A DNA stretch of 64,000 bases, taken from positions 62,001-126,000 of the forward strand of contig DASPKU010000008.1 in the NCBI GenBank assembly GCA_035627955.1, given 5' to 3'. Numbering within the stretch: the first letter of the stretch is position 1; every line of letters starts with the position of its first letter. Origin of the DNA: Phycisphaerales bacterium (lineage in GTDB: Bacteria; Planctomycetota; Phycisphaerae; Phycisphaerales; UBA1924). The translations under genes and the position numbers were made by a program. Below are positions 32,051 to 54,891 of the stretch, in pieces. The notes under the pieces were generated by a model. That model worked only from the letters and a program-made list of their open reading frames with translations, was not told the origin of the DNA and did no database searches.

Positions 32051-32056
32051 CCAGGC

Positions 32057-32088
32057 CTCGATGCCTGGATGCCTCATGCCTTGATGCC
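32057..32088 (-). repeat. GGCATNN iterated element, copy A
   Basis: On the minus strand four units GGCATCAA, GGCATGA, GGCATCCA and GGCATCGA in a row. The 32-bp sequence is identical to copy B at 47611-47642 on the plus strand. It sits between the ends of proC and the ABC permease gene. Confidence 0.85.
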
Positions 32089-32127
32089 TTCCTCTTCAAC
32101 CCGAATCCAGCTCCCGCGAGAACGCGG

Positions 32128-34486: not shown

Positions 34487-34514
34487 TTCCGCTTTCCGCT
34501 TTCCGCCTTCCGCT
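34487..34514. repeat. TTCCGCT heptamer array
   Basis: Four consecutive 7-bp units (TTCCGCT, TTCCGCT, TTCCGCC, TTCCGCT) with exact period 7, ending three bp before the methyltransferase stop codon. Confidence 0.8.
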
Positions 34515-34517
34515 TTC

Positions 34518-35228
34518 CTACACCCGCCGCCGCGCAACAACATGGAAGATGTGCCAATCCTTCACCTCCCCCGTCACCCCCGCCTCGCGGTTCTCGATCT
34601 CCTTGAGGTCCTCAAGGTTGAACTCCCGCAGCATCGCATTCACCTGATCGCGCGTGTGGTGCGTCCGGTCCGGCAGCGATGCCCACCCATCCCGCTCGCC
34701 GAAGAACTGCCCCGCAAACCGCCCGCCCACCGGGATCGCCCCGACGATCTCCCGCCACAGCGCCTCAAACGCCCCGGGATCACAGAACGGCAATGCATAG
34801 CTCGCGTTCACCAGCTCCACGCGCGGCAGCTTGAGCCCCTCAAATCCCGCCACCCGCGTCTCCAGCCGCGACCGCTGCTCCGCCGCCACCACCTTCTTCT
34901 TCAGCAACTCAACCGCCAGCGGCGAGCTGTCGATCGCCAGCACCCGCCACCCGCGCCCTAAAAGCTCCAGCGTGTCCCGCCCGCTCCCACACCCAAGGTC
35001 CACCGCGAGCCGCTCCCGCTTCCCCCCGCCCGCGGCGTCCTCGCGCTCGAACAAATCCAAAGCCTTCAGCAGCGTGTCCCTCGCCGGCTTGCCCTCCACC
35101 GCCGCGAAGTACGCCGGCCAGTCCCGCTTGGCCGCGTGCTCGTGGGCCTTGCCCGGCTTCGCGCCCGCGGCCTCTCCAGCAGCAGAACCAGCAGTGGGGG
35201 ACCCGCGCAGATGTTCGTTCGAGGTCAT
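34518..35228 (-). CDS. SAM-dependent methyltransferase (TehB-like)
   Basis: 236-aa class I methyltransferase. After a disordered Gly/Ala-rich N-terminus (residues 1-33) come RDWPAYFAAVEGKPARDTLL, motif I LAVDLGCGSGRDTLELL, the beta2 acid in VLAIDSSPLAVELL, ELVNASYALPFCDP and RFAGQFFGERDGWA. The VDLGCGSGRDT form and the order resemble tellurite-resistance-type TehB and thiopurine-like enzymes; the actual substrate is unknown. ATG 35228 lies only 13 bp from the start of the divergent ubiD-like gene, leaving no room for a normal promoter between them. Confidence 0.85.
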   Translation of the reverse strand: MTSNEHLRGSPTAGSAAGEAAGAKPGKAHEHAAKRDWPAYFAAVEGKPARDTLLKALDLFEREDAAGGGKRERLAVDLGCGSGRDTLELLGRGWRVLAIDSSPLAVELLKKKVVAAEQRSRLETRVAGFEGLKLPRVELVNASYALPFCDPGAFEALWREIVGAIPVGGRFAGQFFGERDGWASLPDRTHHTRDQVNAMLREFNLEDLKEIENREAGVTGEVKDWHIFHVVARRRV

Positions 35229-35241
35229 AGGCTGTGCTGGA

Positions 35242-37431
35242 ATGTATGAGACCACCCAGGACTTTGTTCGTGCCCTCGCACAATCCGGCGAGCTGAAGCG
35301 AATCTCCGCCCGCGTCTCGCCCATCCTCGAAATCAGCGAAATCACCGACCGCGTCAGCAAGTCCCCCGCCCCCAGCCTCCCATCTCCCGCCGCCCGCCGC
35401 ACCGACCCCCGCCACCACGCCAACGGCGGCCACGCCCTCCTCTTCGACAACGTCGAGGGCTCTGACTGGCCCGTCCTCATCAACGCCTACGGCAGCTATC
35501 GGCGCGTCGAGATGGCCCTGGGCTGTGACCCCGCGATCGGCCTCGAAGGCCTCGCCGACCGCATTGGCAAGCTCATCAAGCCCGAACCCCCACCCACCCT
35601 CCTTGCCAAGCTCCAGAAACTCCCCGAACTCCTCGAACTCGCCCGCATCCCGCCAAAGAAAGTCCGCACCGGCCTCTGCCAGGAGGTCACCCTCACCGGC
35701 GACCAGATCGACCTCCGCCGCCTCCCCCTCCTCCGCTGCTGGCCCCACGACGGCGACCTCGCCGCGCTCGGCTACCCCGCCGACATCAACCACAACATCC
35801 CTGGCGTCGAGCACGGCCCCGAATGGGATGCAAAGCATCGCGGCCGCTACATCACCCTCGCTGGCATCCACACCATCCACCGCGATGACCTCGGCCACCC
35901 CGCTCCCCCCAGCCGCAACATCGGCATGTACCGCGTGCAGTTCTTCGGCAAGCGCACGCTCGCCATGCACTGGCACATGCACCACGACGGCGCCCGCCAC
36001 TGGCGCAGCTGGAAAGCCAGAGGCGAGCGCATGCCCGTCGCCATCGTCCTCGGGGGCGAGAGCGTCCTCCCCTACGCCGCGACCGCCCCCATGCCCCCCG
36101 GCATCAGCGAACTCCTCCTCGCCGGCTTCCTCAACAAGGGCGCGATCCCGCTGGTGGACTGCAAAACCGTCCCCCTCGCCGTCCCCGCCAACGCCGAGAT
36201 CGTCATCGAAGGCTACGTCGACACCCGCGCGGGCTTCCCCGGGTTTGATCCCCGCGTACAAGTGGCAAAGTGGCAAAGTGACGAAGTGGCAAAGTGGGAC
36301 GCTGGTGCGCACAACTCTTCCACTTTGCCACTCAGCCACTCTGCCACTTTGCCACTTCCCTCACCCCTCGGCTCCGGCGCCGTCTTCGAAGGCCCCTTCG
36401 GCGACCACACCGGCTTCTACTCCCTCCCCGACCGCTATCCCATCCTCGAAGTCACGGCCATCACCCACCGCAAGAACCCGATCTACCCGACCACCATCGT
36501 CGGCCTCCCCCCGCAGGAGGACTACTACCTCGGCAAGGCCACCGAGCGCCTCTTCCTCCCGCTGCTCCGCACCATCGTCCCCGACATCATCGACTACGAC
36601 CTGCCGATGTTCGGCGCGTTCCACAACTGCGCGTTCCTCAAGATCAAGAAGGAATACCCCTACCACGCCCGCCGCGTCATGCACGCCATCTGGGGCGCCG
36701 GCCAGATGAGCTGGACCAAGTCCATCGTCGTCGTCGACGAAGACATCGACCTCCACGACACCAACGCCGTCATGGCAGCAGTGGGGGACCGCTGCGTCCC
36801 CGCCCGCGACACCGAGCTCGTCCGCGGCCCGCTCGACATCCTCGACCACGCCGCCCCCTTCCTCGGCGCCGGCGGCAAGATCGGCTTCGACGCCACCCGC
36901 AAAACCAGCGACGCCGAGACCCACCCAGCCGCCCGCTCGCAATCACCCGTCGCCGCCGAAGTCTGCCGCACCACTCCGATCAACGCGGTGCTCGCCGACG
37001 ACGCCCGCCGCGCCGAGCAGCGCATCCGCGAGCTACCCCACGTCCTCGACGCCGCGATCCCCGGAGCACTCGCCGGTCACTGGCTCCTCATCAAGCTCAA
37101 CAAGACCGATGCCGCCCGGGGCCCCGCCACCATCAAGGCCCTTGGCTCACTCCCCAACGAAGTCGCCATCCCCCGCTACATCATCCTCGTCGGCCCAGAC
37201 GCCGACGTGCAGAGCATCGACTCCGCCCTCTTCCACTGGCTTGCAAACAGCGACCCCCAACGCGATCACACGTTCTCGCTCTGTGGCCGGCGCGTCGCAT
37301 TCGACGCCACCCCCAAACTCCCCACCGAAACCGCCAATGGCCTCCCCTGCCGCGACTGGCCCCCGATCATCACTATGGACGAGCCTACGAAGACGAGAGT
37401 AACCCAACGCTGGCCCGAGTACAGCCTTTGA
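35242..37431 (+). CDS. UbiD-family decarboxylase with an in-frame hairpin insertion
   Basis: 729-aa member of the prenylated-FMN-dependent UbiD decarboxylases (4-hydroxy-3-polyprenylbenzoate or aromatic-acid type). Conserved parts: DFVRALAQSGELKRI at the N-terminus, HALLFDNVEGSDWPVLINAYGS, NIGMYRVQFFGKRTLAMHW, GGESVLPYAATAPMP, EGPFGDHTGFYS and KSIVVVDEDIDLHD. The ATG at 35242 fits family starts. At residues ~340-372 a repeat array (36260-36357) adds a segment translated as KWQSDEVAKW ... STLPLSHSATLPL just before the conserved EGPFGDHTG motif. This, with Pro-rich loops, makes it longer than usual members (~490-610 aa). The frame stays open, so the protein may be functional. No ubiX (prenyl-FMN synthase) is in the window. 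Confidence 0.9.
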   Translation: MYETTQDFVRALAQSGELKRISARVSPILEISEITDRVSKSPAPSLPSPAARRTDPRHHANGGHALLFDNVEGSDWPVLINAYGSYRRVEMALGCDPAIGLEGLADRIGKLIKPEPPPTLLAKLQKLPELLELARIPPKKVRTGLCQEVTLTGDQIDLRRLPLLRCWPHDGDLAALGYPADINHNIPGVEHGPEWDAKHRGRYITLAGIHTIHRDDLGHPAPPSRNIGMYRVQFFGKRTLAMHWHMHHDGARHWRSWKARGERMPVAIVLGGESVLPYAATAPMPPGISELLLAGFLNKGAIPLVDCKTVPLAVPANAEIVIEGYVDTRAGFPGFDPRVQVAKWQSDEVAKWDAGAHNSSTLPLSHSATLPLPSPLGSGAVFEGPFGDHTGFYSLPDRYPILEVTAITHRKNPIYPTTIVGLPPQEDYYLGKATERLFLPLLRTIVPDIIDYDLPMFGAFHNCAFLKIKKEYPYHARRVMHAIWGAGQMSWTKSIVVVDEDIDLHDTNAVMAAVGDRCVPARDTELVRGPLDILDHAAPFLGAGGKIGFDATRKTSDAETHPAARSQSPVAAEVCRTTPINAVLADDARRAEQRIRELPHVLDAAIPGALAGHWLLIKLNKTDAARGPATIKALGSLPNEVAIPRYIILVGPDADVQSIDSALFHWLANSDPQRDHTFSLCGRRVAFDATPKLPTETANGLPCRDWPPIITMDEPTKTRVTQRWPEYSL
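36260..36357. repeat. Octamer-array inverted repeat inside ubiD-like gene
   Basis: Left arm 36260-36299 is an array of GTGGCAAA-type octamers; right arm 36318-36357 is its inverted copy. The arms match at 35 of 40 positions and are separated by an 18-nt loop. The element is in frame with the surrounding coding sequence. Confidence 0.9.
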
Positions 37432-38177: not shown

Positions 38178-38638
38178 ATGCCCACGACATCCCAAATCCC
38201 ACATCCTCAATCCCAAATATCTTCTTCCTCCAGCCCTTCCTCCCCCTGCCCCCTCCCGCCACTTTCCCCCGAGGACCAGTCCACCCTCACCGCCCTCCTC
38301 CTCAACGACTTCGATCCCCTCGCCACTGCCAGCGACGCACGCTCTACGCCCCTCAACATTCTCACCTTCAGCGAGCGCCCGGAAATCGCCCCCTACATCG
38401 CGGCCCACCGCAAGCTCTCCCTGGCCCGCTTCGAAGCCCTCGCCCTCGAAACCCTCGCCCGCATGCTCACCCCGCCGCCCCACTCAACCAAGCAGCTCGA
38501 CCACCACAACACCGAGTCCCGCCGCAGCGCCACCACCATCCTCCGCGCCGTCGCCAGCGCGTACAAGCTCCTCATGCGCGTGCAGCACCCCCCGCGCACA
38601 CACCGCCCGCACCCGCCGCACCCGCGCCGTTCGACTGA
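38178..38638 (+). CDS. Small helical hypothetical protein, apparently frameshifted near its end
   Basis: ATG 38178 has AGGA six nt upstream. The N-terminus is coded by a heptamer array (TSQIPHPQSQ). Residues ~30-135 then look like real helical protein (ALLLNDFDPLATAS; ERPEIAPYIAAHRKLSLARF; EALALETLARML; ESRRSATTILRAVASAYKLL). In this frame no stop appears and the frame runs on as antisense to the next two genes. If the C run at 38587-38592 had one more C, the protein would end PPAHTPPAPAAPAPFD at the TGA 38636-38638. So either a sequencing/assembly slip or a true frameshift. Function unknown. Confidence 0.5.
38189..38216. repeat. ATCCCAA heptamer array
   Basis: Four units with exact period 7: ATCCCAA, ATCCCAC, ATCCTCA, ATCCCAA. 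They lie within the first codons of the small hypothetical gene. Confidence 0.8.
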
Positions 38639-47529: not shown

Positions 47530-47610
47530 GGGTCACCCGTTGAGGCGCGGCAGAGCCAAGCCGCGCACCTGGGCAACATAAGTAGGCGGGGAAGGTCGAA
47601 TGGAAAGAGA

Positions 47611-47642
47611 GGCATCAAGGCATGAGGCATCCAGGCATCGAG
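47611..47642 (+). repeat. GGCATNN iterated element, copy B
   Basis: GGCATCAA, GGCATGA, GGCATCCA and GGCATCGA in tandem; the 32-bp sequence is identical to copy A at 32057-32088 on the other strand. It occupies the gap between the exonuclease start and the small gene's stop. Confidence 0.85.
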
Positions 47643-49925: not shown

Positions 49926-51017
49926 TCAGCACGGCCCCCCGCCCAGGACGCGGAAGAACGACTCGATGTCCTGGTCGGTGCCGATGTCGCCGTCGGCATT
50001 GAAGTCGGCGCCGCCCGCGAAGCAGGTGTCGCAGCAGTTGCCGCCCAGGCAGGCGAAGAAGGCCTCGATGTCCTGGTCGGTGCCGACGTCGCCGTCGCCG
50101 TTGAAGTCGGAGGTGCCGCAGGCGGGCGGCGTGCCCACGGTGAAGCGCACCCAGGCGACGTCGAACGCGCCGGGGGCCGAGAGCGCAAGGTCGTGCGTGC
50201 CGGCAGAGTGGGTCAGGCGCAGGGAGACGTCGGTGGGCGCGATGTTGGAGAAGGCCACTACGACATCGGGGAAGTCCATCGCGCCGGCGATGCGGTTGCT
50301 GTCGTCGTCGGGGCAGGGCTGGTTGTTGGCGAGGCTGCGCCGGGAGACGGCGATGTGGTAGACGCCGGGGCTGAAGGTGCGGGTGAGGGTGTTGTTGCCG
50401 CCGTTCGAAAAGCCTGGGACGGGGCGGAGCTGGTCGTCGTAGATGGCAAGGTCGAGGTCGGTGGTGCTGGTGGGGGCGCGCTCAATGGTGACCGGGCCGG
50501 GCGTGAACGCGCCGGCGAGCTCGGTTGGTTGCGTCACGTCGCGGGCGAGCGTCCAGCCGTAAGGCTGCGTGGTGCTGGAGGTGCCGGTCACGCGGAAGTA
50601 GAGCTGCTCTTCGCGGCCGAAGCCGTACCACTGGACCATGCGTGGCGGGGTGGTGTTGCTGGCGGCGTTCTGCTGGGTGGAGTCGCTGCCGGCGTTGGGC
50701 TGGCAGTTGGTCATGGTGAGGCCGCGGATGGTGGTGGGGAAGTTCGCGGTGGAGGTGCTGACGAGGCGGTAGCGGTAGATGGCGAGGGGCATGGGTGCGG
50801 TGCGGACGAGGAAGTAGTCGGCGGTGCCGTTGCCGGTGGCGGTGGTGCTGCTGCCGGTGGAGGAACCCGAGATGGTGTCGCCGGGGGCGATGCCCAGGAT
50901 GGGCGTGGCGGCGGCCTTGATGTTGTTGGGCTCGGATTCGGGGAAGGTGGTCTGGGCGCTGGCGGCGCCGCAGAGGGAGAGGATGACGGCCGCCGAGAGC
51001 ACACGCACGCAGTTCAT
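49926..51017 (-). CDS. Secreted GC-type dockerin-anchored protein 1
   Basis: 363-aa exported protein. ATG 51017 has GAGGAG six nt upstream; signal peptide RVLSAAVILSLCGAASAQ. Then FPESEPNNIKAAATPILG...TADYFLVRTAP resembles pre-peptidase C-terminal (PPC-like) domains, with a second beta-sandwich after. The C-terminal ~70 residues carry two EF-hand/dockerin-like units, DFNGDGDVGTDQDIEAFFAC and DFNADGDIGTDQDIESFFRV, each with a short Cys-Cys spacer (GGNCCDTC), ending LGGGPC. The same module ends the proteins at 53368 and 63438. Probably surface-displayed; function unknown. Confidence 0.88.
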   Translation of the reverse strand: MNCVRVLSAAVILSLCGAASAQTTFPESEPNNIKAAATPILGIAPGDTISGSSTGSSTTATGNGTADYFLVRTAPMPLAIYRYRLVSTSTANFPTTIRGLTMTNCQPNAGSDSTQQNAASNTTPPRMVQWYGFGREEQLYFRVTGTSSTTQPYGWTLARDVTQPTELAGAFTPGPVTIERAPTSTTDLDLAIYDDQLRPVPGFSNGGNNTLTRTFSPGVYHIAVSRRSLANNQPCPDDDSNRIAGAMDFPDVVVAFSNIAPTDVSLRLTHSAGTHDLALSAPGAFDVAWVRFTVGTPPACGTSDFNGDGDVGTDQDIEAFFACLGGNCCDTCFAGGADFNADGDIGTDQDIESFFRVLGGGPC

Positions 51018-51143
51018 GAACGACTCCTCGATGTGGTGACGCAGGACGTCGAGTGGGGGTCTGCGCGAGGGCCGCGCAGCGTGCCGGCATATTCCCTGGA
51101 AGATTCGGTCCGGTTCCACCCGGGCGGAAGGTAGACTGCGGCT

Positions 51144-52703
51144 ATGACCAACGCCGCCCCGTCCGCGTCCGCTGTGCCCAACCTGATCGCGAACAAACCG
51201 CACGCGGGGGCGTCCGCGGCCACGCGCCCGGTGGTCAACCCGGCCACGGGCGAGACGCTGGCGCAGGTGGCGATGGATGACACGCGGGCGGCGGAGGCGG
51301 CGGTGCAGGCCGCGGCGGAGGCGTTCCCGGGGTGGAGCGCGACGCCGGTGGGGGACCGGTGCCAGTTCCTGTTCCGCTACAAGCAGGCCCTGGAGACGCA
51401 CTTCGAGGAGCTGGCGGCGCTGATCGTCAAGGAGCACGGCAAGACGCTGGCCGAAGGGCGGGGCGACGTGCGCCGCGGGATCGACTGCGTGGAGTTCGCG
51501 TGCGGGGCGCCGAGCCTGATGATGGGGCGGACGCTGCCGCAGATCGCGGTGAGCAGCTCGTTCTGCCGCACCGAGGACAAGTCCGGCGTAGGGATCGACT
51601 CGTCGGTGGACCGCGTGCCGCTGGGGGTGTGCGTGGGGATCACGCCGTTCAACTTCCCGGTGATGGTGCCGCTGTGGATGTGGCCGATGGCGGTCGCGTG
51701 CGGCAACACGTTCGTGCTCAAGCCCAGCGAGAAGGTGCCGCTGTCGGCGGTGCGCGAGGTGGAACTCGCCCATCAGTGCGGGCTGCCGCCGGGTGTACTC
51801 AACCTGGTCACCGGCGGGCCCAAGGTCGTTGACCACCTGATCACGCACGAGGACGTGAAGGCCGTGTCGTTCGTGGGCTCGACGAGGGTGGCGCAGCACA
51901 TCTACACCACCGCGACGGCGCACGGCAAGCGGGCCCAGTGCATGGGCGGGGCCAAGAACTACATGGTGATCATGCCCGACGCCAACCAGGACGCCGCGAT
52001 CGAGGGGATCGTGGGCTCGGCGTTCGGCAACAGCGGGCAGCGGTGCCTGGCGGGCAGCGTGTGCGTGGCGGTGGGGGACACGCCGGGCTGGCTGATCCCG
52101 AAGCTGAAGGAGGCCGTGGGGCGGATCAAGGTGGCGCGGGGGGATGAGCCCGGGTGCGGGATGGGGCCGGTGATCGACGAGGCTTCGCGCCAGCGGATCG
52201 TGGGGTTCATCGAGAGCGGGGTGCGCGAGGGGGCGGAGCTGGTGTGCGGGGGGATGTCGGATGTCGGAGGTCGGATGTCGGCCAAGGCATTCTCCGCCTC
52301 CGACATCGCACATCCGACATCCGACATCCCCCGGGGCTGCTTCGTGCCGCCCACCATCTTCGACCACGTGCGCCCGGGCATGAGCATCCTCGAGGAGGAG
52401 ATCTTCGGGCCAGTGCTGAGCATCGTGCGCGAGGAGACGCTGGACGCGGCGATCGCCACGATGAACCGCTCGCGCTACGGCAACATGGGCGTGATCTTCA
52501 CCAGCAGCGGCTACCACGCCCGCCGCTTCAAGACGCACGCGCAGGTGGGGATGGTGGGCATCAACGTGGGCGTGCCGGCGCCCATGGCCGTGTTCCCGTT
52601 CGCGGGGTGGAAGCAGAGTTTCTTCGGCGACCTGCACGCCAACGGGGAGGACGCGGTGAAGTTCTATACGGAGAGCAAGGTGGTGGTCGCGCGGTGGATG
52701 TGA
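51144..52703 (+). CDS. mmsA: CoA-acylating methylmalonate-semialdehyde dehydrogenase, with in-frame hairpin insertion
   Basis: 519-aa ALDH-superfamily enzyme of the MMSDH type, oxidising (methyl)malonate semialdehyde to propionyl-/acetyl-CoA in valine, inositol or beta-alanine catabolism. Landmarks: VVNPATGETLAQV, GVCVGITPFNFPVMVPLWM, LKPSEKVPLSA, SFVGSTRVAQHIY, catalytic Cys301 in NSGQRCLAGS, EEEIFGPVLSIVREETL and FPFAGWKQSFFGDLH. Residues ~370-397 are an insertion made by an inverted heptamer array (52249-52332; MSDVGGRMSAKAFSASDI), in the loop between LVCGG and RGCFVPPTIF, where homologues have a short turn. Catalytic residues are intact, so activity is plausible. Confidence 0.92.
   Translation: MTNAAPSASAVPNLIANKPHAGASAATRPVVNPATGETLAQVAMDDTRAAEAAVQAAAEAFPGWSATPVGDRCQFLFRYKQALETHFEELAALIVKEHGKTLAEGRGDVRRGIDCVEFACGAPSLMMGRTLPQIAVSSSFCRTEDKSGVGIDSSVDRVPLGVCVGITPFNFPVMVPLWMWPMAVACGNTFVLKPSEKVPLSAVREVELAHQCGLPPGVLNLVTGGPKVVDHLITHEDVKAVSFVGSTRVAQHIYTTATAHGKRAQCMGGAKNYMVIMPDANQDAAIEGIVGSAFGNSGQRCLAGSVCVAVGDTPGWLIPKLKEAVGRIKVARGDEPGCGMGPVIDEASRQRIVGFIESGVREGAELVCGGMSDVGGRMSAKAFSASDIAHPTSDIPRGCFVPPTIFDHVRPGMSILEEEIFGPVLSIVREETLDAAIATMNRSRYGNMGVIFTSSGYHARRFKTHAQVGMVGINVGVPAPMAVFPFAGWKQSFFGDLHANGEDAVKFYTESKVVVARWM
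52249..52332. repeat. Heptamer-array inverted repeat inside mmsA-like gene
   Basis: Left arm 52249-52281 holds GGATGTC heptamers; right arm 52300-52332 is the inverted copy (30 of 33 positions match). The loop (52282-52299) is 18 nt, the same as in the ubiD-like element. In frame with the coding sequence. Confidence 0.9.
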
Positions 52704-52709
52704 TGTGGA

Positions 52710-52731
52710 ACGACCGTGCTCGGACGGTCGT
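52710..52731 (+). terminator. Hairpin after mmsA
   Basis: ACGACCGT-gctcgg-ACGGTCGT, perfect 8-bp stem, seven bp after the stop. No T run follows, so it may be a dispersed palindrome rather than a terminator; compare 26251. Confidence 0.5.
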
Positions 52732-52878
52732 GGAGAGCCGCGTGCCAACCCTGTGCTCTGACCGTCGTGCCCTCCTGTTATCGCGACATTTGGGGGCAGG
52801 GCCCGCTAATAACGCCGCTGGCGCTCCGACACGCGGGTTGTTGCCGCCGACACGAGGGAAAATGGCCCCGACGAGCCC

Positions 52879-53010: not shown

Positions 53011-53367
53011 CTCGGTTCTGCCCCATGTCTGGGGATCAACGGCTGTTGGTTGCCCTCCGCGACCTGACCCGCGCGATCACCTGCGCAAGGGGGGCCGCTC
53101 GCAAAAAACCAGAGGTCCAGCGCATCCTTCTTTCCATCCTCTAATAGGTTGACAGGTCAGAACTTACCGCCGCGAATGCGAGAGGGTGTCGGCGGTCACT
53201 CGCAAAAATGTTTCCCCGACTGCATCAACGGTCCAGATGAGCACGGTATAAGAACGGCCTGAGCGGCTGAGCCCCGCCCCCTACTGCGCTTCCTGCACCT
53301 CCAACCTGCTCGGCGATGCACCCGTGTGCGCGCCATCCGCATGTACCTGCTTTCGGAGGCCAGGAGC

Positions 53368-54891
53368 GTGACGAGCCATTTGAGTTTTCTCAGCGCGATC
53401 GTTGCGTTGACAGCGGTCGCGGCCGCGGGGGATGGTCCGACCCGGGTCACCGACTTCGCTGCATTGCATCAGTACCAGGAGCACGCGCGGATCAAAGCGC
53501 TCACCGCCGCTGGCGACCACGCCGCCGCCGTCGTGCTGAAGACCGTCGACCATCGGGCCACCCGGACCGTGCTGTGGACGACCGGCGACCGCGGCGAGAC
53601 GTGGGAGATGCACAACTACTCGGACACCAAGCGCACCGCCGACTACCACCCCGCGCGGATCGAGTCGTGCCTGGGGATCAGCAGCGCGGGCGTGCTGTCC
53701 ATGAGCATTGAACTCTCACCGGTGCCTGGGCAGGCACGGCAGTTCAGCTACATGCGGCGGTTCTTCGACTCGATGTGGTTCGGCACCCCAGCCCTGGTCG
53801 GGCCCGTGCACACCGAGGGCGAGCCCATGCCCGCCGAGCTCTCGGCTACCCGCCGCTGGCGCTTCCTCAGCCGGCCCGGCATCACCAAGACCGGCACGCC
53901 CTACTGGCTGGGCGGCGAGGCCGACCAGCAGCGCGGGGCGGCGGTCAACCGCGGCGTATTCATGGGGATGACGCCTTCCCGCATCCTCTCCGGCGGCGAC
54001 ACCGTGGAGCCCGACGCCGCCGTGATCGGTACCGCCGCGTCCATCGAGGCGTTCTCCATCTCACCGCTGGGTTCGCAGATCGTCGCGGTGGTGGCGGTGG
54101 ACCGCGGGTACGCGGGCGCGGGCGAATGGCGTGTGATCAACCGCAACCTTTCGGCCCCTGAGAACACGCCCGACGTCAACCACACGCTCATCAGCCAGAG
54201 CGGCACCTGGAACGGCTACCCGGTGCGCCGCTTTTACTTGCCCGCCGCGGGCGAGGTGCCCGGGTGCAATCACCCGCAGCGCTGGGCCGTGGCCGCGGAT
54301 GTGATCGATTCCGAGGACCAGGACTCGCTGGTCATCGTCAACAACGAGCTCGCATTCCGCGAAGGGACGGCGGTGGGGGGGCTGGTGCTGTCCGGCCCTC
54401 CGATGGTGCTCAAGCTCAACCTCACCAACGACCTGCTGATGGTCTGGGGCGCCCGCGAGCCCGGCGCGAGTGTTACGACCCTCGCGGCCTTCCTCAACGG
54501 GGCTCCCATCCTTAGGGTCAACGACACCGTCGACACCGACGGCGACGGCACGCCGGAGGCCGACCAGGTCGTCACCTACATCGCGCCCGTGGCAGCCATC
54601 AGCGAGATGGCGAGCGCTGACGGCAGGCTCTCCGTCTACATCTCCGTTCATATCAACGGCGCGCCCGCCATCGTCCGCCTCCGCGCCCCCGGCACGCCGC
54701 CGGGCGGCACCTCCGACTTCAACGGCGACGGCGACTTCGGCACCGACCAGGACATCGAGGCGTTCTTCGCCTGCATCGGCGGCACCTGTTGCCCCACCTG
54801 TGGGTCGGCCGACTTCAACGCCGACGGCGATGTTGCAACCGACGGCGACATCGAGGCGTTCTTCCGTGTGCTGGGCGGCGGCAGCTGCTGA
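53368..54891 (+). CDS. Secreted GC-type dockerin-anchored protein 2
   Basis: 507-aa exported protein. I choose GTG 53368: GGAGG lies eight nt upstream and the signal peptide SFLSAIVALTAVAAAG starts at once; ATG 53341 is an alternative. The body is beta-rich with an Asp-box-like TTGDRGETWEMH, suggesting a sialidase/propeller-like fold. The C-terminal ~65 residues carry the GC-dockerin module (DFNGDGDFGTDQDIEAFFAC, then DFNADGDVATDGDIEAFFRV, ending LGGGSC). Only 29 bp separate it from the giant toxin-like gene, so the two are probably co-transcribed. Confidence 0.85.
   Translation: MTSHLSFLSAIVALTAVAAAGDGPTRVTDFAALHQYQEHARIKALTAAGDHAAAVVLKTVDHRATRTVLWTTGDRGETWEMHNYSDTKRTADYHPARIESCLGISSAGVLSMSIELSPVPGQARQFSYMRRFFDSMWFGTPALVGPVHTEGEPMPAELSATRRWRFLSRPGITKTGTPYWLGGEADQQRGAAVNRGVFMGMTPSRILSGGDTVEPDAAVIGTAASIEAFSISPLGSQIVAVVAVDRGYAGAGEWRVINRNLSAPENTPDVNHTLISQSGTWNGYPVRRFYLPAAGEVPGCNHPQRWAVAADVIDSEDQDSLVIVNNELAFREGTAVGGLVLSGPPMVLKLNLTNDLLMVWGAREPGASVTTLAAFLNGAPILRVNDTVDTDGDGTPEADQVVTYIAPVAAISEMASADGRLSVYISVHINGAPAIVRLRAPGTPPGGTSDFNGDGDFGTDQDIEAFFACIGGTCCPTCGSADFNADGDVATDGDIEAFFRVLGGGSC

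Follow-up and report, generated by a model that had tools for sequence, protein, structure and literature searches.

A hairpin of facing heptamer arrays in an mmsA-like gene and its dispersed counterparts in a Phycisphaerales genome

Cyanobacterial STRRs are dispersed tandem direct repeats of 7 nt that lie mostly in intergenic regions. In Xanthomonas, dispersed GGGAATC heptamers are described as occurring most commonly in arrays of four units near the ends of ORFs, with a function given as unknown (Rehm et al. 2015, PMC4692102). The same account reports 70-75 facing array pairs per genome, an intragenic share of 7-11%, and the formation of G-quadruplexes by the GGG tracts. The TAACTGA heptamers of the Beggiatoaceae are presented as dispersed, mostly intergenic direct repeats, with one inverted repeat in the described genome (PMC4679880). 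Palindromic elements have also been reported within genes. Those of Rickettsia are ∼150 bp long and are reviewed as forming ten sequence families, each with a conserved peptide (PMC10969869; Ogata 2000, 2002, as cited in that review). Intragenic GTAG/CGTC REPs have been listed in DnaE, uvrA and tRNA synthetase genes, as well as at approximately the same site of recB in two Xanthomonas species, and the most intragenic GTAG repeats were recorded in Opitutus terrae, a member of the same superphylum as the genome analyzed here (PMC3733652). Nematomorph mitochondrial genes are described as carrying coding, perfect inverted repeats of up to 284 bp (PMC6649704). Among the top-ranked titles of the openly licensed literature, we found no report of tandem-armed palindromes that lie in frame and are built of changing units, in planctomycetes or elsewhere.

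The window analyzed here is a 64-kb stretch of DNA (G000, contig C8, positions 62001-126000) of a source genome of 4.26 Mb in 23 contigs. It includes the following gene and hairpin:

51144..52703, plus strand: mmsA-like methylmalonate-semialdehyde dehydrogenase gene, 519 aa (ORF list, PF00171, Foldseek)
52249..52281, plus strand: left, purine-rich arm of GGATGTC heptamers, read approximately as GGMSDVGGRMS
52282..52299, plus strand: 18-nt loop of the mmsA hairpin, different from those of the other heptamer hairpins seen
52300..52332, plus strand: right arm of complementary heptamers, read approximately as SDIAHPTSDIP

The product was assigned by Pfam to the aldehyde dehydrogenase family PF00171 (E 3.9e-136), and the nearest solved structures among the top Foldseek hits, 9q0d and 1t90, are methylmalonate-semialdehyde dehydrogenases. 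The initial annotation had described arms of 33 nt matching at 30 of 33 positions around an 18-nt loop, in frame within mmsA, and this was confirmed by the arm count (30/33, or 91%, complementary, 18 nt between), by the ORF (51144-52703, plus strand), which is stop-free across the hairpin, and by TRF, which independently detected 4.3 copies of GGATGTC at 52252-52281 and 4.4 copies of its complement at 52299-52329. In ten windows generated as order-5 Markov versions, the best 33-nt inverted repeat with a loop of up to 30 nt had 22-24 matches, compared to 30 in the real sequence, and the RNA fold of the hairpin had an energy of -64.4 kcal/mol (z -10.4). The mmsA hairpin is real and far beyond chance.

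The corresponding loop is 15 aa long in 18 of the 19 closest orthologs and 17 aa in the remaining one, compared to 34 aa here (alignment A1, a chosen subset of orthologs from which L048 and L082, apparently one locus, were left out). The net gain at the site is 57 nt, although the element comprises 84 nt, and a DGR motif present in all 24 aligned mmsA orthologs is absent from the element-bearing gene. The site therefore represents a replacement of ∼27 nt rather than a clean insertion. The mmsA ortholog of L048/L082 carries another hairpin-like insert at this site, and its DGR is also missing. In the AlphaFold model (mean pLDDT 82) insert residues 370-393 scored below 50, and the insert is probably a disordered surface loop. 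A search with an 801-nt query spanning the site returned 49 rows: the site itself, its own reverse complement, one unrelated match, and 46 rows elsewhere. The latter were confined to query positions 328-435, with the element at 350-433, and several places were matched on both strands; the genus was represented in the search by the source genome alone.

The 64 kb contain nine period-7/8 arrays of 3.5 or more copies, compared to 0.05 expected, and four of these are the arms of two hairpins, the one in mmsA and a second in a UbiD-family gene. The remaining features considered in the window are:

32055..32090, no strand assigned: period-8 array, unit GCCTTGAT (TRF)
34487..34518, no strand assigned: period-7 array, unit TTCCGCT (TRF)
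34831..37431 (start uncertain), plus strand: UbiD-family ORF with the octamer hairpin (PF01977, PF20695 and PF20696 on 35230-37428)
36260..36357, plus strand: ubiD octamer hairpin, unit AGTGGCAA, a second family with the same architecture, adding ∼33 aa to UbiD
38189..38218, no strand assigned: period-7 array, unit ATCCCAA (TRF)
47609..47642, no strand assigned: period-8 array, unit GAGGCATC, approximately reverse-complementary to that of the array at 32055

The arrays at 32055-32090 (GCCTTGAT) and 47609-47642 (GAGGCATC), 15.5 kb apart, possibly represent a third family. A further facing pair, with unit AGTAGAGG, was observed in the same genome (L171, 572-653), which points to at least one more. 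In addition, the ORF at 53326-54891 (plus strand) and the C-terminal part of the minus-strand ORF at 49926-52748 encode terminal DFNGDGDxGTDQDIEAFF-like repeats, perhaps calcium-binding domains.

The mmsA and ubiD hairpins had been noted to differ in sequence, and they were found to belong to two separate, large sequence families. The GGATGTC-family pattern GGATGTCGGATGTC, with one mismatch allowed, occurs at 94 places in the genome, in ∼36 clusters (none for the reversed-pattern control), and the octamer pattern AGTGGCAAAGTGGC at 164 places (control, 5). The octamer family has the unit AGTGGCNN and includes the ubiD hairpin; its copies were fetched from the first 100 of the 164 places, so some lie outside the sample. 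From 32 heptamer and 28 octamer stretches, 35 and 31 arrays were defined, respectively, each with at least two 14-mer matches, single matches being dropped. Two facing arms were present in 4 of the 35 heptamer arrays, the other 31 being one-armed, and in 21 of the 31 octamer arrays. The genome-wide search suggested in the initial annotation thus yielded dozens of inverted arrays, and the objection that there might be no further examples fails.

The supposed constancy of the loop did not survive this comparison. The ubiD hairpin had been credited with the same 18-nt loop as mmsA, but the arm-based count gave 20 nt, and an alternative repeat detection gave 49-nt arms with no loop at all. The loops of the 21 two-armed octamer copies examined range from 12 to 45 nt and are unrelated in sequence, while those of the four heptamer hairpins of the genome measure 18 nt (mmsA), 18 nt and 37 nt by eye, with a TRF gap of 8 in the fourth, L037. 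An equal loop length of the mmsA and ubiD hairpins is not a rule. Of the earlier proposal that structure, rather than sequence, defines the family, what stands is the recurrence of inverted 7-8-nt arrays with several unrelated units; the constant loop does not.

On balance, the mmsA hairpin probably represents a copy of a palindromic repeat that is dispersed and non-autonomous and survives in genes where it is tolerated. A mechanism that acts on single-stranded or hairpin-forming DNA would copy the arms to new sites, and an HUH Y1 transposase acting in trans is the leading, putative candidate for it. Five loci share, by eye, the unit order GGATGTC-GGATGTC-GGAGGTC-GGATGTC, with the first base altered in two of them, and since this order recurs, the mmsA-type arm appears to have been copied as a unit. 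The heptamer unit is 80-98% conserved per position, more loosely than the AGTGGC core of the octamer (98-100%), in which two spacer bases vary and are mostly A or G. Core conservation in the two-armed octamer copies was similar at genic (358/360) and other (609/612) positions. The octamer arms typically consist of four units followed by AGTG or AGTGN, i.e., ∼4.5 units (37 of 42; 19/21 left and 18/21 right arms), and 23 of the 42 carry the inner hexamer AAAGTG. The two-armed copies possess terminal inverted repeats, as is characteristic of MITEs.

Y1_Tnp (threshold E ≤ 1e-15) was present in 14 of 15 element-bearing genomes versus 25 of 74 other genomes of the family (Fisher p 2e-5), where bearing refers to two unit types only and sometimes to one match. 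This association may reflect shared ancestry (phylogeny), genome size (3.55 versus 3.30 Mb), or a general repeat load or tolerance. Beside the nine Y1 loci of the source genome (3.5-4 kb each) no heptamer or octamer units were found, the nearest matches being one degenerate 14-mer at 2 mismatches and eight at 3. Linkage of the Y1 transposases to both main units was thus rejected. Other 7/8-nt arrays were located 0.7-1.8 kb from three Y1 genes (TGAGGGGG and TCTCCGTG in L279, CTTCCCA in L282, GGATTGG in L284), a density (four in ∼34 kb versus nine per 64 kb in the window) no higher than expected. The flanks of five strong Y1 genes (L279-L283) contain other GC-rich palindromes, which by eye are apparently classical REP/TIR-like sequences. 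Target-site duplications around the 21 octamer hairpins were not in excess over shuffled flanks, and among the matches listed (for the octamer, the first 100 of 164 places) no autonomous partner flanked by arms was apparent by eye. If whole hairpins move, the dissimilar loops of the copies are unexpected, and the independent arms, the lost target sequence, the absence of target-site duplication and the mostly one-armed state of the heptamer arrays also count against the repeat interpretation.

Within genes, copies would last only in surface loops that can accommodate them. The initial annotation had placed the hairpins in frame in loops of conserved enzymes, and this description proved apt for ValS, DnaE, UbiD and others. 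Pfam named the hosts of octamer hairpins as ValS (three hairpins), DnaE, i.e., DNA polymerase III alpha (two), UbiD, a histidine kinase and Dus, with one octamer arm in the carbamoyl-phosphate synthase large chain. The heptamer hosts are MutS, MeaB with a B12-binding domain, a fumarase-type lyase, a CofH/MqnC-like radical-SAM enzyme, NAD synthase (twice), a glycosyltransferase, a UPF0004 radical-SAM enzyme, a methyltransferase-domain protein, and mmsA; this naming leaves out four genes (L176, L177, L018 and L034). Separately, DnaE (L157, 850-5040) carries at residues 379-464 an 86-aa insert that is missing in at least 75% of aligned relatives and contains inverted, GC-rich stretches of a type other than the 7/8-nt one.

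The build of the element, with inverted arms of stop-free, frame-neutral 7- or 8-nt units, may contribute to this tolerance, without any benefit to the host being claimed. Ohno is said to have pointed out that repeats whose unit length cannot be divided by three give the same reading in every frame. With 7 or 8 nt, a stop-free unit passes through the three frames in turn and therefore encodes one cyclic peptide in all of them, and because the arms are inverted, the same peptide results in both orientations. The eight genic octamer hairpins start in codon phases 0, 1 and 2 in three, two and three cases, respectively, and whatever the phase they read as permutations of SGKVAKWQ followed by LPLCHSAT; in one-armed arrays, either strand can be the coding one. 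The idea that stop-freeness is a special adaptation was rejected: at this composition, 75% of random 7-mers and 72% of random 8-mers are stop-free on both strands, and the window unit GCCTTGAT is not stop-free, so only the frame argument stands.

A more far-reaching interpretation, possible but in our opinion doubtful, is that these arrays form a class of mobile DNA set by a build rule rather than by sequence. Facing arrays of about four 7-/8-nt units, with the purine-rich one first, would be made by a dedicated unit-adding or copying activity; with stop-free consensus units and one peptide in all frames and orientations, they could spread through core genes, and lineages would swap units under an unchanged rule.

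Recurrence in other genera supports the dispersed repeat considered probable above. Seven insertion sites (three in ValS, two in DnaE, one each in mmsA and UbiD) were scanned in orthologs of other genera; 29 loci per gene were offered, and the length filter was passed by 29 for ValS and 29 for DnaE. Tandem arrays were found in 16 site-ortholog cases outside the source genome, and among the ten periods tested 14 of the 16 had period 7 or 8, the others being 9 and 12. The 14 cases comprise nine in ValS and five at DnaE site 2, with three at the threshold score, and the period scan flagged no array at mmsA, UbiD or DnaE site 1 in other-genus orthologs. TRF detected a facing GAACTCG pair at the ubiD locus L254 (G029), which coordinate arithmetic places in the UbiD loop. 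At ValS site 3, the source genome has an octamer hairpin, G050 an array of GGATGTC type, and G029 a mixed pair, the last (L295) consisting of facing arrays with different units, ACAGCGA heptamers and TCACTTCG octamers.

Loci around mmsA orthologs, picked without regard to repeats, comprised 449 kb of Phycisphaerales-type sequence with eight period-7/8 arrays, of which a single locus had four, and 75 kb of outgroup sequence with none; with nine in 64 kb, the source genome is unusually rich in such arrays. The long heptamer and octamer patterns have a patchy distribution, occurring in 13 and 12 of 150 genomes, respectively, with the source genome included. In all loci studied, close array pairs gave 63 TRF rows, of which 38 were inverted and 37 of those had the purine-rich arm first. 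As L299 accounts for two rows, the count by place is 36 of 37, and in the one deviating pair, L048, the two arms hardly differ (0.46 versus 0.50). The set includes approximately nine unit types, but most pairs come from the two main families, for which many of the loci had been selected, so the events are not independent. In the octamer hairpins the plus arm came first in 21 of 21 cases; this order was a selection criterion, yet an order-free scan also gave no reversed copy.

The same polarity is predicted if 3' ends at a double-strand break were extended by templated 7-8-nt units and then joined, which we consider unlikely. Facing G-rich arrays around a random junction are the geometry of fused telomeres. 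Such an origin predicts, besides the purine-rich arm in first position (36/37 places), loss of the target, as at mmsA, different units in one pair, such as the ACAGCGA and TCACTTCG arrays of L295, and unrelated junction loops with independent arms. The 21 octamer loops gave a best pairwise score of 11 versus a mean best of 10.3 (maximum 13) in shuffles, a mean over all pairs of 5.87 versus 5.18 in shuffles, and a best reverse-complement score of 14, a figure without shuffle control. Left and right arms within an octamer hairpin had a similarity of 0.434, compared to 0.445 for arms of different hairpins. Homogenization of arms within a hairpin by template switching was accordingly dismissed, as there was no excess similarity (permutation p 0.63). 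Two other ideas about the loop were discarded: an inner hairpin with compensatory changes, plausible by eye in three heptamer copies, was not distinguishable from shuffles in the 21 octamer loops (mean z -0.1), and retention of the loop from the native protein was ruled out by eye at ubiD and dnaE site 1. The near-constant arm of 4.5 units and the inner end AAAGTG (23/42) look more like a copied element than like tailed break ends, and a single unit that recurs at dozens of loci, as well as in other genera, also speaks against joined ends.

It is distinctly unlikely that the hairpins are functional RNA structures under selection on operon mRNA (stability, ribosome drop-off), the genic copies being by-products, even though their placement and the very stable fold of the mmsA copy agree with such a role. 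A codon-bias gene caller trained on the window placed 8 of the 21 octamer hairpins within an open gene, 11 between genes and 2 across a gene end. With one-armed arrays included, 11 of 31 octamer arrays are genic, 17 intergenic and 3 over a gene end, compared to 12 (with coding support weak on one side for L018, L034 and L040), 19 and 4 of the 35 heptamer arrays. Coding positions are the minority in both families. All 11 intergenic octamer hairpins lie between co-directional genes, 1-12 nt past the stop codon. In five of the nine neighbor pairs scanned, the two sides belong to different named families, which excludes split genes for these five hairpins; the named pairs include the succinate-dehydrogenase flavoprotein/iron-sulphur subunits, DUF58/BatA, and T6SS VasE/DotU. 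The remaining four pairs have one side without a family or unscanned, and two of the 11 pairs were outside the scan. Two DUF58/BatA-type operons (L158, 1224-1316; L175, 1200-1300) carry an octamer hairpin at the same junction, with differing loops and spacers, possibly a repeated use of one kind of site. Survivors of insertion would give the same placement as functional hairpins, and selected RNA structures fit poorly with the patchy spread of the patterns (octamer 12/150, heptamer 13/150 genomes), the many one-armed copies, and the ValS and DnaE copies, which lack such a logic.

Local polymerase slippage, with polymerases simply favoring 7-mers, is very unlikely to have made each array. Heptamers are reported to be in excess in many bacteria (PMC4692102, PMC4679880), heptamer-derived satellites have been described (PMC6749651), and long, perfect arrays exist, such as one of 18 units in G089, but slippage cannot produce facing arms of near-constant length, dozens of loci with an identical unit, or a conserved core with a variable spacer. 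A strict REPIN/RAYT system, in which paired REPs are moved by a cognate REP-associated tyrosine transposase, is barely credible, since its two inverted arms with a variable spacer, its position after stop codons, as described for REPs (PMC3733652), and the strong Y1 co-occurrence are outweighed by arms that are tandem arrays rather than palindromes, by 8-nt flanks of the 21 octamer hairpins in which no GTAG/CGTC tag was seen by eye, and by heptamer and octamer units unlinked to Y1 genes.

If the mmsA hairpin is indeed a copy of a dispersed palindromic repeat, two puzzles would be joined, the over-representation of heptamers in bacteria, which has been ascribed to polymerase slippage or, in G-rich units, connected with quadruplexes, and the survival of palindromic selfish DNA in core genes, and 7-/8-nt units in inverted arms, neutral to frame and orientation, would explain this survival. 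The same interpretation would mean that repeat-derived peptides in loops of ValS, DnaE and other core proteins of the group can mislead alignments and trees.

As in the Xanthomonas GGGAATC system, tandem 7-nt units are dispersed here and facing pairs have the G-rich arm first (36/37 places), with arms of about four units shown for the octamer (37/42). Unlike in Xanthomonas, only 4 of 35 heptamer arrays are paired and the genic share is 12/35 and 11/31 arrays. Moreover, GGATGTC and AGTGGCAA, in contrast to the GGGANTN unit, contain no G tracts, so quadruplexes cannot explain the four-unit arms, and neither they nor slippage account for near-constant facing arms of such units. The Beggiatoaceae TAACTGA arrays share dispersed 7-nt tandem units with those studied here but are described as direct repeats (PMC4679880). 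The Rickettsia palindromic elements, compared by description only, are likewise selfish-looking palindromes in frame in unrelated housekeeping genes, while the review does not describe their arms as 7-8-mer arrays (PMC10969869). The GTAG/CGTC REPs resemble the elements described here as palindromic repeats inside core genes and are presented as short, tagged and linked to tyrosine transposases (PMC3733652). The nematomorph palindromes are also inverted repeats in coding genes, in an account that does not describe short-unit arrays (PMC6649704). Facing heptamer arrays, as in Xanthomonas, and in-frame palindromes, as in Rickettsia and the REPs, are thus known separately, and no report of their combination was recognized among the top-ranked titles.
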